From NCBI RefSeq assembly GCF_019263745.1, contig NZ_CP077107.1:558001-622000 (forward strand): DNA of 64,000 bases, given 5' to 3'. A program made the translations under genes and the position numbers. Source of the stretch: Methanospirillum hungatei. Its GTDB lineage: Archaea > Halobacteriota > Methanomicrobia > Methanomicrobiales > Methanospirillaceae. Each line of letters begins with the position of its first letter. Positions within the stretch are counted from its first letter, which is position 1. Below, in pieces: positions 4,871 through 10,869 of the stretch. Below the pieces are notes generated by a model. The model did no database searches. It worked only from the letters and a program-made list of their open reading frames with translations, and was not told where the DNA came from.

Positions 4871-7030
4871 ATGCCCAGGAAACCAGATAAAACACTTTTT
4901 AATATATTAATTATTGTTCTCTTCTTCCTGATTTTCATGCCGGGAGTAACATCAGGAGCAGAGGATCCTGTTTATGTGGGAGTTTTACTTCCCTTAAGTG
5001 GTTCGGATGGACAAAACCTTCATGATGCATTACAACTTGCCAAGGAACAAATCAACGCTGGTGGAGGGATTGGTGGAAGACCACTTGAATTTATCCTGAG
5101 GGATACCCATACCGGGGATCTCATAACCTATGCGAAATATTTAGTAAAAGATCCCAGAATTAGGATTGTTATTGGACCACACACATCAGAAGAACTCTTT
5201 TTGATCTCAGATCTATTTGTCAAAAACCAGAAAGTTTTGATATCTCCTACTGCATCATCAGATGAGATATATCGTGCTTATGCTGGAACAGGCTATGTAT
5301 GGAGAACGATAGCTAATGATGGTGACATTACATCTGCGGTCATGCAACATATTAAAGCACATAATGGGGAAAAAGTAGCCGTCCTCACTATCAATAGTTC
5401 ATATGGGAAGACATTTTATGACTGGATACCATATTGGGCGATAGAAAACGGAATATCTATCACCGGAGTTGAAGATTATTCTGATCTTGAGGAAATCCCT
5501 GATGCGATAGAACATCTCATTTCACAAAATCCGGATTATCTGATTTTTGTCCACTCAGGCTCTGTAGTTGAGATTGGAACAGTTTTTCTCACGCTCAATG
5601 CCATGAATGCATCAACTCACCTATATTTCATCTATCCTGATGTTGATGAACAGGGGCAGATCTGGGAACGATTAGATCCCGGAACACTTGGATTTCTCCT
5701 GGCTACAGGTCTTTGGAAAACAGGTTCTGTTAGCATGATATCAACACAGCTCCCTGATGATACTCTTATGCTGATGTCAAAACCCTGGGCCACAGATTTT
5801 TCTCAGGAATATCATACAATATCTAATACCAGCCGGTCTGATTTTGTTCCTGAAGTTTATGATGCAGTCCTTGTTGCAGCAGCAGTTATGGCACGATTTA
5901 CAGCCTACCCAGATAAATCACCAGGGAATGCAGCAAAATCTATTCTAACCAATGAAACGGGAGATACATGTGATCGAAGTGAAACGGGTTTTCAATCAGC
6001 ATTCAATAAAATTCAGGGGGGAGAAATTCCCGTTATGACCGGGGTTACCGGCCCGCTTTCGTATCGGAAAGAAGGAGTAGACAGACAAGTACCCTGGTAT
6101 GAAACCTACCGTATCGAGGAAGGAAAGGTGATTGCCGATCCGATACCATACCAATTTCGTGAGAAATCAGGTTCAGGTATGGATCTGTCAGATACCCTTT
6201 CTGATACTACCCAACCAACTGATAAGGATCTCCCGACTGGTGATTACTGGGCAGTCATCGGTGCATTAACACGGGATTGGGTAAATTACCGGCATCAGGC
6301 TGATGCCCTGACCATGTATACCTATCTAAGAGAGAAGGGAGTTCCGGATGATCATATCATCTTGCTTGTGTTTGATGATATTCCTCAGGACCGCCTGAAT
6401 AAAAAACCCGGTGAAGTTTATCATACTCCAGGTGAAGAAGAGGTCCGTAAACAGGCGAATCCAGATTACATTGGAGAGAACGTCAATAAACAGATGCTCA
6501 TAGATATTCTCTCAGGGACCGGGATAGAAAATGATGAACCAATTTTACGTTCAAATGAAAATTCAACCGTTCTGATTTATCTTTCATCACATGGAGCTCC
6601 AGGAGGAAACCTGGTACTCGGTGATGGAGATGAACAGATTTCTGCTAAAGAGATTTCAACGGTATTAGATAATATGGCGAAAAATAAGAGATTCGGACGA
6701 ATGTTTGTAGTTCTAGAATCCTGTTTCAGTGGCGTTCTCGCATCGGACGTGAAAACTCCCAGAGTTCTGGTTCTGGCTGCTTCTGCTGAAGATGAAACCT
6801 CAAAATCCACAACATATGATTCTGAGCTATCAGCCTGGCTTTCAGACGAATTCACGAATGAATTAATCTCGCTTCTTCGGAGTTCTGATCGACCGTTTAC
6901 CCTCCGCCATCTCTATCAGCAACTTTATTACAATGTTCGTTCTTCTCATCCATCAATAACCAGAGGGAATGAATCATTGGACGTTCCGGTCCATCTGTTT
7001 TTTGGAGGAGATAACAATGCAGCATCCTGA
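4871..7030 (+). CDS. Secreted ligand-binding protein fused to a legumain-like C13 peptidase
   Basis: The 719-residue protein has a signal peptide (to about residue 30). Residues about 33-420 form a type-1 periplasmic binding domain of the Leu/Ile/Val-receptor kind (VGVLLPLSGSDGQNLHDALQ, INAGGGIGGRPLEFI). From about 457 the sequence switches to peptidase family C13: LREKGVPDDHIILLVFDDIP, then NPDYIGENV, then YLSSHG with His574, then VLESCFSG with Cys618. These match the catalytic dyad and spacing of legumain and GPI8. C13 enzymes cleave after Asn or Asp; substrate here is unknown. No C-terminal anchor is present. The stop overlaps the start of the next gene, which encodes a second binding protein. 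The fusion suggests ligand-controlled proteolysis outside the cell; that is inference. Confidence 0.88.
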   Translation: MPRKPDKTLFNILIIVLFFLIFMPGVTSGAEDPVYVGVLLPLSGSDGQNLHDALQLAKEQINAGGGIGGRPLEFILRDTHTGDLITYAKYLVKDPRIRIVIGPHTSEELFLISDLFVKNQKVLISPTASSDEIYRAYAGTGYVWRTIANDGDITSAVMQHIKAHNGEKVAVLTINSSYGKTFYDWIPYWAIENGISITGVEDYSDLEEIPDAIEHLISQNPDYLIFVHSGSVVEIGTVFLTLNAMNASTHLYFIYPDVDEQGQIWERLDPGTLGFLLATGLWKTGSVSMISTQLPDDTLMLMSKPWATDFSQEYHTISNTSRSDFVPEVYDAVLVAAAVMARFTAYPDKSPGNAAKSILTNETGDTCDRSETGFQSAFNKIQGGEIPVMTGVTGPLSYRKEGVDRQVPWYETYRIEEGKVIADPIPYQFREKSGSGMDLSDTLSDTTQPTDKDLPTGDYWAVIGALTRDWVNYRHQADALTMYTYLREKGVPDDHIILLVFDDIPQDRLNKKPGEVYHTPGEEEVRKQANPDYIGENVNKQMLIDILSGTGIENDEPILRSNENSTVLIYLSSHGAPGGNLVLGDGDEQISAKEISTVLDNMAKNKRFGRMFVVLESCFSGVLASDVKTPRVLVLAASAEDETSKSTTYDSELSAWLSDEFTNELISLLRSSDRPFTLRHLYQQLYYNVRSSHPSITRGNESLDVPVHLFFGGDNNAAS

Positions 7031-8264
7031 AAATCACAATCATTTATTGATTTATGCTCATTTACGTGATTATCCAAATAATTGTAAAAAACCAAAGGCA
7101 CATTTGGGGAATCTACAACAACCGAACATCCCTTTTGTTCTGTTCATAATTAGCTTGTTTTTCATCTGCATTCTCCAGACTCCTGCTTCAGCAGTTGAAA
7201 ACCAAACATTTACCTGTGGAATCATTCTTCCTTTGAGTGGAGAGATGAATGCTTCAGGAATCGCTCTCCTTCAGGGTATTGAAATTGCAACCGATGAGAT
7301 AAATAATAACGGAGGAGCAGCTGGTCATCAGATTTCTCTTCGTATCGCTGATGATGAAGGGTCTCCATCGAAGGCTTTAAGTCTATTTAATGAGATGAAA
7401 AACGATGGGATTCCTGCTGTTATCGGTTCATATTCTACCAGTATCACCCTTCCGATGGCAGAAGAGACCAAAAATTCAGAGGATATAATTCTCATCTCTC
7501 CCCGAGCAAATGGTGAACCACTGTATGGAATTTCACCACGGTTTTACCAGATAAATGCACCATTCTTCACTGTTACTCAATTTGTGTCTGACTGGCTGTC
7601 ATATACAGCGGAACGGGTTGCTATAATCTATATTGATGATGAATATGGAAGATCTGTTCTGAGCGGCCTTGAATCAGGTCTTAAGACACATTCGATCCCA
7701 ATTTCAGGATCATTCCCCATAACCAACGAAGATACAGATTTTTCTGGCATTTTCAATACAATACTTAACGATGCACCAGACTCCATTGTAATCAGTGTAT
7801 ATGATTCCAGACAGATTCCTATCATCAGAAATCTTTCCGATGCAGGTTACCGTGGTCAGGTGATATTGACAGAAACAGGGTATATCAATTTACTTGAAAA
7901 TGAGGAATCAGAATTTTTATCGATGTTTTCACTCTTTATGATCCCATCTCATTCCTATCTGGTTCCTGGAGAACGGACTGACAGGTTTGTGAAATCATTT
8001 AAGGACAGATTTGGTCAGGACCCTGAACGAACCATTGCCGGATATGGATATGATTCCATGATGGTTCTCGCATATGCGATCCGGCTTGGTTCAGAAAATG
8101 GAACTATTTCTGCCGATTCAATACAAAAAGGACTAGATGAATCCAGGTACTATGGTATTACCGGACCAAAAACGTTTGATTCGTACCATACCGTCCCTCC
8201 AGTCCTGGACCGCTGGTTTTTCAAAGACGACAAATTTATCCTGTTGATGACGTCACTGACCTGA
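7017..8264 (+). CDS. Secreted type-1 periplasmic ligand-binding protein
   Basis: The start chosen is ATG 7017, because GGAGGAG at 7004-7010 sits six bases before it and the gene then overlaps the upstream stop by 14 bp; an in-frame ATG at 6969 lacks such a site. The 415-residue product has an unusually long cytosolic lead before its hydrophobic segment (about residues 38-60), so the signal may act as an anchor. The body (CGIILPLSGEMNASGIALLQ, IDDEYGRSVLSGLE, TIAGYGYDSMMVLAYAI) is a Peripla_BP_6/LivJ-type domain. No permease or ATPase gene of a branched-chain amino-acid ABC system accompanies it. It is probably a sensory or accessory partner of the preceding ligand-binding-C13 protein. Confidence 0.88.
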   Translation: MQHPENHNHLLIYAHLRDYPNNCKKPKAHLGNLQQPNIPFVLFIISLFFICILQTPASAVENQTFTCGIILPLSGEMNASGIALLQGIEIATDEINNNGGAAGHQISLRIADDEGSPSKALSLFNEMKNDGIPAVIGSYSTSITLPMAEETKNSEDIILISPRANGEPLYGISPRFYQINAPFFTVTQFVSDWLSYTAERVAIIYIDDEYGRSVLSGLESGLKTHSIPISGSFPITNEDTDFSGIFNTILNDAPDSIVISVYDSRQIPIIRNLSDAGYRGQVILTETGYINLLENEESEFLSMFSLFMIPSHSYLVPGERTDRFVKSFKDRFGQDPERTIAGYGYDSMMVLAYAIRLGSENGTISADSIQKGLDESRYYGITGPKTFDSYHTVPPVLDRWFFKDDKFILLMTSLT

Positions 8265-8376: not shown

Positions 8377-8949
8377 TTACCGATAAATACATTGTTTCCA
8401 ACAGCCATTGCCTTCCGGGTATCGTTCATGACAACGGCGGACACATTCTGGATCGCTCCCGTTTTCTATAGAGTTCCCTTTTAATTCTATGTATATACCC
8501 GTAAATGACGTAGTTGTCAGATTAATAGTATTCAAACCTGTATTGTCACTTTGAAATGATTTCAATCGCTCTCCTTCATAAAACTCAAGTGGTTTTGCCT
8601 TGATCGTGATATCTTTGTTTTCGCCGATTAGTGACAGATTTAAGATTTCAACCAATGATGTATTTTCATCTTCTGTACCGGAAAATAACAATACGGCATT
8701 AAGGGGATATGTCAATGTCTTCATGATATCGATCGGAACCAGAATACCATAATCCTTTTCTGATACATATAAATTCGGGACAATATCCCTCACAGTTAGC
8801 TCTATTATCTCGTCTGTTTCGTCTGTGATAGAGGCTTCGCCACCCTGTATGTAAGCTACATATGAAGGTGTTTCATCTGCAATACTGACTCCTGTCGTCA
8901 ATAGAGCCATGAGGAAGCAAATTAACCCTAAAGAGAAAAATCGATTCAT
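8377..8949 (-). CDS. Exported protein with C-terminal cysteine cluster, unknown function
   Basis: ATG 8949 is preferred over an upstream TTG at 8961. The product of 190 residues starts with a signal peptide (FFSLGLICFLMALLTTGVSI-ADE). The middle is beta-rich and Thr/Asn-rich without recognised motifs. The last 25 residues hold CVRRCHERYPEGNGCWKQC, four cysteines that could form two disulfides or a small metal site. It converges on the ligand-binding gene upstream and diverges from the C69 peptidase. No family was recognised. Confidence 0.7.
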   Translation of the reverse strand: MNRFFSLGLICFLMALLTTGVSIADETPSYVAYIQGGEASITDETDEIIELTVRDIVPNLYVSEKDYGILVPIDIMKTLTYPLNAVLLFSGTEDENTSLVEILNLSLIGENKDITIKAKPLEFYEGERLKSFQSDNTGLNTINLTTTSFTGIYIELKGNSIENGSDPECVRRCHERYPEGNGCWKQCIYR

Positions 8950-9090
8950 TATGTGAATCAAAGGTTTACATATTAATAGTTCTTTCGTTTAGGATTCCGT
9001 TTTTACAAGACTTTCGAAACGGACCTGACTGCATCAGATTCTAAAAAAGAAGAATATTGAATAGATAAGTATTTGGAAAGTACATTACAG

Positions 9091-10869
9091 ATGATGATCC
9101 CGGATAAAATTATACTCCTTCTCCTTCTTATCGCCGGATTTATTCAAATCTCATCCGGATGCACGATATTTGTTGTCACTCCCGGAGCAAGTGAAGATGG
9201 AAAAATGTATGTAGGTCACACCAATGACGGATATGGTCCGGGACTAGTTGGTCCAAGCCCGGATGAAGAATTCTCTAAATTGGTCTATATTCCCGCAAAG
9301 GACTATCCGAAAGGTGCGATGAGAACCGTCTCCTATGATACAAAATCAGGGGGAGATATTGCCGGAGAATGGACCAGGGGAATACTCCCGCCAACGGGAT
9401 TTATCCCGGAGATATCGCATACTCATGGCTATCTTGCTTCTGCATATGCGATAATGAATGAAGAGGGACTCATGTGTTCTGAAGCAACAGACTATGCAAA
9501 AACCAATCCGGAATATGATCCCAAAGGTAGGATCTTCTATAGCTCTGAACTCTCTAATATTGCCCTTGAACGGTGTAAAACACCACGTGAAGCAATATCC
9601 ACAGTTGCTGAACTTATCGATTCTTATGGATATTACGGGTATGGGGAAACCCTTGTCTTTGCTAATGGCACTGAAGCATGGATAATGGAGATGTGCGGAG
9701 CTCCGGATTGGACCGGCGGTATCTGGGCTGCACAAAAGGTAAAAGACGGAGAAGTCTTTGCCGGGGGAAACATCTTCCGGATAGGACCGATAGATCCAAC
9801 CAATCCAGACCAGATGATTTCAGAAAATGCGAAAGAAATTGCAGAACAAAACGGATGGACTGTTGAAGAAAACGGACGATTCAATTTTGCCAATACCTAT
9901 TCTGCCGGAGAATTCACCCACCCCTATCATACATTCGGGAGGATATGGAGTATCTATAACCGAATCGCTCCTTCTGCCAAAACTTCGGCAGTATTCTCGG
10001 ACTGGAAGGAAAAATCCTATCCGTTTTCCATTATCCCGGACCATCAATTAAATAAAACAGAGATATTCAGCCTGTTTCGTGATCATTACGAAGGAACAGA
10101 TTGGGATCTGACATCAGGAATTGCTGCAGGACCCTTTGGAGATCCGTATCGTGAACGGGGGCCGGTTGATGAACAGGAGGGCACAATCGCTGAGAGGATT
10201 GTTCCGGGTGCCTGGCCATACCCGGTATCAGCAATAACCTGTGGATATAGTTATATCTGTGAATCCGGAAAGAACCAGACCGCTCCGGTTCCCGGTATCT
10301 GCTGGTTCGGGTTTGCCCAGCCTTATGAAACCTGCTATATCCCGGTATTCCCAACAATAAGCGAACTTTCCGAGGTCTTTTACCAGGGGAACCGCTCCGT
10401 ATACGACCAGACATATGGATACTGGCCATTTTCCACCGTCACCAACTGGGCCAGGCTCAGGTATGATTCGATGATTCCTATTATCCGGGAAAAGCAAAAA
10501 GAGATAGAAACCAGGGAGATTGAGGATGTTTTAAACGTCTCGAAAAAGGGTCGGGAGATTATGAATTCTTCAGGGAAGGATGCGGCCCGAACATATCTGA
10601 CCGATTATACACGGGAAAATGCAGAACAGGTAATGAGAGACTGGTGGAATCTGTCAGATTCACTTATCATCAGGTATTCTAATGGAATGATCTGGGATCC
10701 GGTGGAAAAGGCAGATAGTCTTGCCGGGTACCCGGACTGGTGGTATAATATTTCCAGATACCAATACGGGCCACGGGTGTATGACATTTCCGGACTAGAA
10801 GAGATTTCCGGACTTCAATATGTGAATAGTACGATATATGAGTCGTCGGATTCATTTCCATGGAGATAA
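9091..10869 (+). CDS. Exported C69-family dipeptidase
   Basis: The frame is open from TTG 9073, but ATG 9091 gives a clean signal peptide (IILLLLLIAGFIQISSG) and is preferred. Cleavage exposes CTIFVVTPGASEDG, so the N-terminal cysteine can act as the nucleophile, as in family C69 (U34) dipeptidases of the Ntn-hydrolase fold. Supporting blocks are GHTNDGYG, the central YGYYGYGETLVFANGTEAWI and the GPIDPTNPDQM region. Its length of about 592 residues is normal for archaeal members. It probably releases amino acids from dipeptides outside the cell. It stands alone in its transcript. Confidence 0.9.
   Translation: MMIPDKIILLLLLIAGFIQISSGCTIFVVTPGASEDGKMYVGHTNDGYGPGLVGPSPDEEFSKLVYIPAKDYPKGAMRTVSYDTKSGGDIAGEWTRGILPPTGFIPEISHTHGYLASAYAIMNEEGLMCSEATDYAKTNPEYDPKGRIFYSSELSNIALERCKTPREAISTVAELIDSYGYYGYGETLVFANGTEAWIMEMCGAPDWTGGIWAAQKVKDGEVFAGGNIFRIGPIDPTNPDQMISENAKEIAEQNGWTVEENGRFNFANTYSAGEFTHPYHTFGRIWSIYNRIAPSAKTSAVFSDWKEKSYPFSIIPDHQLNKTEIFSLFRDHYEGTDWDLTSGIAAGPFGDPYRERGPVDEQEGTIAERIVPGAWPYPVSAITCGYSYICESGKNQTAPVPGICWFGFAQPYETCYIPVFPTISELSEVFYQGNRSVYDQTYGYWPFSTVTNWARLRYDSMIPIIREKQKEIETREIEDVLNVSKKGREIMNSSGKDAARTYLTDYTRENAEQVMRDWWNLSDSLIIRYSNGMIWDPVEKADSLAGYPDWWYNISRYQYGPRVYDISGLEEISGLQYVNSTIYESSDSFPWR

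Follow-up and report, generated by a model that had tools for sequence, protein, structure and literature searches.

Legumain (MEROPS family C13; human LGMN) and GPI8/PIG-K, the catalytic subunit of the glycosylphosphatidylinositol (GPI) transamidase, are central eukaryotic enzymes whose prokaryotic kin have been little studied. Legumain carries a C-terminal prodomain, and its asparagine pocket is shaped by Arg44, His45, Glu187, Ser215/216, and Asp231; GPI8 works on GPI lipids within a multi-subunit complex of the endoplasmic reticulum. Venus-flytrap domains are known from LivJ/HAAT amino-acid-binding proteins, from Bmp/PnrA (BmpA) nucleoside-binding lipoproteins found in the context of ATP-binding cassette (ABC) permeases, and from flytrap-enzyme receptors such as the natriuretic peptide receptor guanylyl cyclase, in which an extracellular type I flytrap is joined to an enzyme and follows a ligand-driven dimer logic. 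Here, we describe a gene pair from a 64,000-nucleotide stretch of the Methanospirillum hungatei genome (NZ_CP077107.1, positions 558,001 to 622,000, forward strand; this whole stretch is called the window, and coordinates refer to it unless stated otherwise). The first gene, P1, fuses a LivJ-like ligand-binding domain (LBD) to a C13 peptidase, and the second, P2, encodes a stand-alone binding protein. The fusion with its partner looks like a widespread, unstudied coupling of chemical sensing to protein cutting. The layout of P1 is as follows (pLDDT, predicted local distance difference test).

4871..7030, + strand: P1, the LBD-C13 fusion gene, 719 amino acids (open reading frame, Pfam, AlphaFold2 model)
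4871..4957, + strand: hydrophobic N-terminal signal sequence, residues 1-29, with a helix at 7-21 and no lipobox (sequence and model; helix modeled, low pLDDT at 22-29)
4967..6160, + strand: type I periplasmic-binding (LivJ/HAAT-like) domain, residues 33 to about 430 (Pfam, PDB profile, Foldseek)
6176..6238, + strand: linker between LBD and C13, residues 436-456, variable in the alignment and modeled with low confidence (pLDDT < 50 at 441-452)
6248..6952, + strand: peptidase C13 (legumain/GPI8) domain, residues 460-694 (PF01650, phmmer, Foldseek)
6284..6295, + strand: legumain-type NYRH motif, residues 472-475, invariant in 78/78 fusions and aligned to legumain NYRHQADA
6590..6592, + strand: catalytic His574 (SSHG), 78/78, aligned to legumain TDHG and GPI8 TGHG
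6722..6724, + strand: catalytic Cys618 (ESCFSG), 77/78, aligned to legumain EACESG

The fusion itself, which the original prediction had proposed from the letters of the DNA, was confirmed by profile search. Peptidase_C13 (PF01650) matched residues 460-694 at 4.1e-46 (158.1 bits against a curated cut-off of 22.8), and P1 is the only C13 gene in this one-contig genome of 3,393,136 bp. The LBD matched Peripla_BP_6 (1.4e-22, residues 33-231) and ANF_receptor (1e-12, residues 52-342) in Pfam, and amino-acid-binding proteins of the PDB in a profile search (3.8e-25). An AlphaFold2 model of full-length P1, built from an alignment with 18 relatives, had a mean pLDDT of 85.6 and a predicted template modeling (pTM) score of 0.83. 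When the halves were compared with the PDB by Foldseek, the C13 half matched human legumain (E 3e-20; target-normalized template modeling score 0.87-0.89) and the LBD half matched Leu- and amino-acid-binding proteins (E 1e-18). Conserved LBD positions S106, A128, S130, D150, and Y178 align with amino-acid-binding proteins, including the Leu-bound structure of the Brucella Leu-binding protein. We did not retain an equivalence between a conserved Asp of the second lobe and LivJ Glu226, since the residue came out as D257 in one alignment and D269 in another.

The active site points to a working enzyme. The His574/Cys618 pair named in the original prediction aligns with the legumain pair, and among 78 aligned fusions H574-G575 was invariant, while the sole fusion without Cys618 (L088) has a C13 match that is split and degenerate around the site. 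Position 616 is acidic (E or D) in all 78, being E616 in P1, two residues before Cys618 as in legumain; S644 and R474-H475 are likewise kept in all 78. The NYRH motif contains what we take to be the counterpart of the legumain S1 residues Arg44-His45, and the S1 pocket counterparts are retained in the fusions in general, with the qualification that the Asp231 counterpart, position 659, is Asp in 45 (D659 in P1) and Asn in 33. P1 should therefore be active and Asx-type, with predicted cleavage after Asn (or Asp). Two features set it apart from legumain: the residue before the catalytic His, Asp in legumain, is Gly in 61 fusions, Ser in 15 (Ser573 in P1), and Asp in 2; and the C-terminal autoinhibitory prodomain is absent, since P1 ends 25 residues past its C13 match and carries an N-terminal LBD instead. 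The C13 domain scored equally against legumain and GPI8 (phmmer, both ~4e-29; 104.8 versus 104.6 bits), and GPI8 shares the Gly that precedes the catalytic His in most fusions, although it has no flytrap domain. Partners like those of the GPI transamidase complex are not seen here, though no search was aimed at its other subunits.

The fusions, in contrast to eukaryotic legumain, are prokaryotic and membrane-tethered or exported. Most bacterial fusions and their Bmp partners (see below) carry lipoprotein signals, and the Methanoregula-type archaeal fusions and partners have N-terminal membrane helices. P1 has its signal-like helix, for which we infer cleavage after TSGA. P1 shares the type I flytrap fold with LivJ/HAAT proteins but differs from them in being joined to a protease in a genome that lacks the LivHM permease: there were 8 LivJ-type (PF13458) matches in the genome and none to the LivH/M permease domain (BPD_transp_2), although the control search for this domain found it in 12 of the 14 genomes used as reference. 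The absence of ABC permease genes reported for the locus thus extends genome-wide for the LivH/M class, and it is unlikely that these proteins feed a known LivHM importer. The LivJ-type proteins of this genome are all orphans, which may indicate either a non-transport role or an unknown transporter. There is also a resemblance to the flytrap-enzyme receptors, whose ANF_receptor domain matches both P1 and P2, but the enzyme of P1 is an extracytoplasmic protease and there is no transmembrane signaling domain.

This architecture is conserved far beyond one genome, and so is the pairing described below. With C13 confirmed by profile search, neither of the outcomes named as refuting the original prediction, a failed C13 match or a fusion confined to one genome with an unconserved pair, came about. 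A scan of 85,000 genomes with the full fusion as query gave 306 relatives, and in all of the best 80 loci, which were kept, a C13 domain lies behind a complete or partial LBD. These loci come from Methanomicrobiales, Bacteroidales, Treponema, Myxococcota, Bdellovibrionota, Actinomycetota, and a few uncertain bins; cultured organisms with homologs include Methanospirillum stamsii, Methanocalculus taiwanensis, and Paraprevotella xylaniphila. Among 101 related genomes, 20 had a C13 match, and all strong matches (E < 1e-40) but one (L035) were LBD-bearing open frames of 670-760 amino acids; when 247 genomes from the phylum were searched, only the order to which P1 belongs gave strong C13 matches. 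A tree of the fusions groups them by phylum (6 label changes, the minimum possible being 5), with the Methanospirillum-type fusions on a long branch (1.35) inside the archaeal group and M. stamsii as the nearest named relative of P1. The constant LBD-C13 order in archaea and several bacterial phyla, together with this grouping, points to long-standing selection that keeps sensor and protease in one chain. Decayed copies also exist: the Methanoregula locus L035 retains only the last part of its LBD, and in L074 the LBD is split by a frameshift, so the system has been lost in places. No named family in PADLOC or NCBIfam matched the fusion, and our search of the open-access literature found no paper describing the LBD-C13 fusion or the gene pair.

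The second conserved element is the partner. Clustering of neighboring genes exposed a protein of ~340 amino acids adjoining the fusion, which Pfam identifies as Bmp (8e-41 for an archaeal example, 2e-33 for a deltaproteobacterial one); a Bacteroidales example falls below the Pfam threshold yet belongs to the same BLAST cluster. With a profile made from this cluster, and counting genes on the same strand within 500 nt of fusions that have at least 1.2 kb on both sides, we found a Bmp gene adjoining 38 of 60 fusions, mostly overlapping them. Bmp genes of this kind are few per genome (one or two in G020, G029, and G049, for example), so adjacency by chance would be expected in well under 1% of cases. 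The Bmp gene lies downstream of the fusion in archaea, whereas most bacteria have it upstream; the pairing has therefore outlasted one rearrangement or more. Distances among the fusions correlate with those among the Bmp proteins (r=0.876 for 45 pairs and 0.818 when restricted to Bacteroidales/Treponema; 0/1000 permutations in both cases), as expected for genes that are inherited together. These partners resemble BmpA-type proteins in sequence and, in bacteria, in being lipoproteins, but they stand beside a protease where BmpA-type proteins have an ABC permease context.

Methanospirillum departs from this pattern in the identity of the partner. The gene that follows P1 had been described as a second binding protein, which it is, and as a twin of the P1 domain, a description that does not hold: over 191 amino acids the binding domains of P1 and P2 are only 24% identical, and most relatives of P1 have a Bmp/PnrA-family protein in that place. 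Its features are as follows.

7004..7008, + strand: Shine-Dalgarno GGAGG for P2, inside the last codons of P1 (sequence; similar in other Methanospirillum-type loci)
7017..8264, + strand: P2, stand-alone LivJ-type binding protein, 415 amino acids (PF13458, Peripla_BP_6, 1e-39; alignment; homologs beside the fusion)

The genes do overlap as predicted, but probably by less than the 62 nt that a start at 6969 would give: judged from the sequence, the most likely start is the ATG at 7017, 8 nt after GGAGG, which makes the overlap 14 nt. The other five Methanospirillum-type loci likewise have the start of P2 only a few bases away from the stop codon of P1, which, with the ribosome-binding site inside P1, suggests translational coupling. 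Close homologs of P2 (E<1e-199) were found only in G000, G002, G003, G007, G009, and G017, the next match falling to 1e-44; these six are the surveyed genomes that have a Methanospirillum-type fusion, and the homolog adjoins the fusion in all of them. The structure model of P2 is of low confidence (pLDDT 69.7). Methanospirillum thus keeps the rule with a LivJ-type protein in place of Bmp, and what is conserved is a fusion accompanied by a stand-alone type I binding protein of one kind or another. A 763-amino-acid frame in a further genome (G061:C1:170881-173082) has two consecutive P2-type binding-domain matches and may encode a tandem flytrap protein.

The only Bmp domain of the M. hungatei genome is found elsewhere, in a 732-residue protein in which it sits behind an LBD of the C13-fusion type, with no C13 domain.

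L134:5299-7497, equal to C1:2729298-2731493 of the same genome: LBD-Bmp fusion, 732 amino acids

For each half, the closest sequence is encoded by the corresponding gene of the LBD-C13/Bmp operon of Methanocalculus (identities of 53% and 52%). Similar LBD-Bmp chains were seen in about seven further Methanomicrobiales genomes (G017, G006 in part, G074, G086, G068, G061, and G099). LBD and Bmp can therefore be one molecule. The chain looks like the product of an LBD-C13/Bmp operon from which the C13 segment was dropped, or the change may have run in reverse.

We put the probability at roughly one-half that P1 and P2 make up an extracytoplasmic, membrane-tethered, ligand-regulated Asn/Asp-specific sensor-protease with a co-receptor. 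P1 would supply a LivJ-type Venus flytrap and, C-terminal to it, a C13 cysteine protease with its catalytic residues intact, cutting after Asn (or Asp); P2, or the Bmp/PnrA protein of most relatives, would be a second flytrap encoded in this operon, with a role as co-receptor or regulatory subunit. The ligand of the LBD is probably an amino acid or a relative of one, as the alignment of S106, A128-S130, D150, and Y178 with Leu-binding proteins suggests, and that of Bmp partners may be nucleoside-like. Closure of one or both flytraps on the ligand would change the heterodimer and uncover or block the C13 active site; proteins of the cell surface in its vicinity would then be cut in a ligand-dependent way. 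A ligand-gated extracellular protease was also the function first put forward for P1, and it remains the best one we can infer; nutrient uptake appears unlikely, and self-recognition, one of the roles attached to it, is supported by no result.

Several points weigh against the sensor-protease reading. The domain arrangement was predicted from P1 as a single chain. The architecture, the active-site residues, the signals for export or membrane tethering, the conserved pairing, the direct LBD-Bmp fusion, and the lack of the matching permease are observed; the heterodimer, the identity of the ligand, its gating of the protease, and the substrate are inferences. There is no Bmp neighbor in 22 of the 60 fusions with readable flanks; 2 of these have a LivJ partner, and the remainder, many of them from Myxococcota, have no recognized partner, which indicates that a partner is not strictly required. 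Adjacency and distance correlation come from related, nonindependent sequences and must in part reflect common descent. The 85,000-genome scan, whose query favors fusions over stand-alone C13 proteins, gives no measure of the number of stand-alone C13 genes. The flanks of the Bmp-less fusions encode caspase C14, subtilase, YHYH, TonB receptor, aconitase, and other proteins with no recurring family; in two Bmp-less bacterial loci the overlapping gene is itself a protease (caspase-like C14 at L089:8127-9767 and subtilase S8 at L087:5105-5824).

Best placed among the rival explanations, although improbable, is that the sensor-protease serves to cut and switch on secreted proteins encoded next to it, which in some bacteria would amount to a miniature ligand-triggered perforin cascade. 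Genes for MACPF (perforin-like) proteins do occur upstream of the fusion, and on its strand, in 11 Bacteroidales/Treponema loci, and a ~200-residue secreted family stands beside the pair in four Methanospirillum-type genomes, in one of them as its only copy; but archaeal loci and most of the remaining ones lack MACPF, other members of the genus hold up to 10 copies of the secreted family, and cleavage of either is itself presumed. Next in our ranking, and doubtful, comes a GPI8-like transamidase, in which C13 would cut a sorting signal after Asn/Asp and transfer the protein to an amine nucleophile while the flytraps hold acceptor or substrate instead of sensing a signal. The equal legumain and GPI8 scores, the prevalent Gly before the catalytic His (as in GPI8 TGHG, with Ser in P1, and not the Asp of legumain), and membrane tethering would all suit this, and some legumains ligate (PMC8600085). 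Neither a conserved sorting signal at the C terminus nor a family of anchored substrates was identified, however; a GPI-like lipid is not expected, and the LBD resembles binders of free amino acids.

Close behind we would place the likewise improbable idea that the LBD is a folding, inhibitory, or substrate-docking module that binds no ligand, the pair then being a constitutive protease with a chaperone-like subunit. This would explain a domain divergent from transport proteins (E ~1e-22 in P1, on the long Methanospirillum branch) and a partner family that can be swapped; against it, the pocket-type residues D150, Y178, and S106 are among the best-conserved LBD positions. Least likely of the rivals is nutrient scavenging, with the protease freeing amino acids or peptides that the binding proteins hand to an ABC importer: both binding domains do come from transporter-associated families, but no LivH/M-class permease is found in the genome or beside the gene, and a covalent tie between binding domain and protease that recurs in every lineage would be unusual in a transport system. 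A bolder extension of the sensor-protease reading, speculative and argued by analogy, is that LBD-C13 and its partner flytrap form an ancient, widespread receptor-protease jointly controlled by two small-molecule sensors, which in gut Bacteroidales and Treponema might trigger MACPF with a complement-like logic.

Whatever its ligand, a legumain-type protease forms part of a sensor protein in archaea as well as in several phyla of bacteria, often with a second sensor. If ligand control is true, this would be a new route from a chemical signal directly to the cutting of surface proteins, bypassing the cytoplasm. It is directly testable, as both proteins are exportable, soluble domains are easily designed, and the substrate specificity is predicted.

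In the MACPF loci the gene order is MACPF, lipoprotein (often present), Bmp, and fusion, and serial MACPF genes precede Bmp and fusion in L112, L115, L119, L123, L128, L131, L132, and others. The lipoprotein family of these loci (cluster c2) is unrecognized by Pfam. Examples of fusion, P2, Bmp, MACPF, and lipoprotein matched no PADLOC model of known anti-phage defense. Two further genes of the window lie next to or downstream of the P1-P2 pair.

8377-8961, - strand: member of the ~200-amino-acid secreted protein family, adjoining the pair
9073-10869, + strand: family C69 dipeptidase, downstream of the pair

We rejected the dipeptidase as a possible third member, because none of 26 other Methanomicrobiales loci has a relative of it beside the fusion. 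The secreted family adjoins the pair in 4 of 6 genomes (G000, G003, G007, and G009; the sole copy in G003), has 8 copies in the M. hungatei genome, and was confined to this genus in a search of 21 genomes. MACPF and these secreted proteins are the best substrate candidates, nothing more, and the latter may possibly be a third component. A member of the secreted family is also found near another orphan LivJ-type gene (L137).

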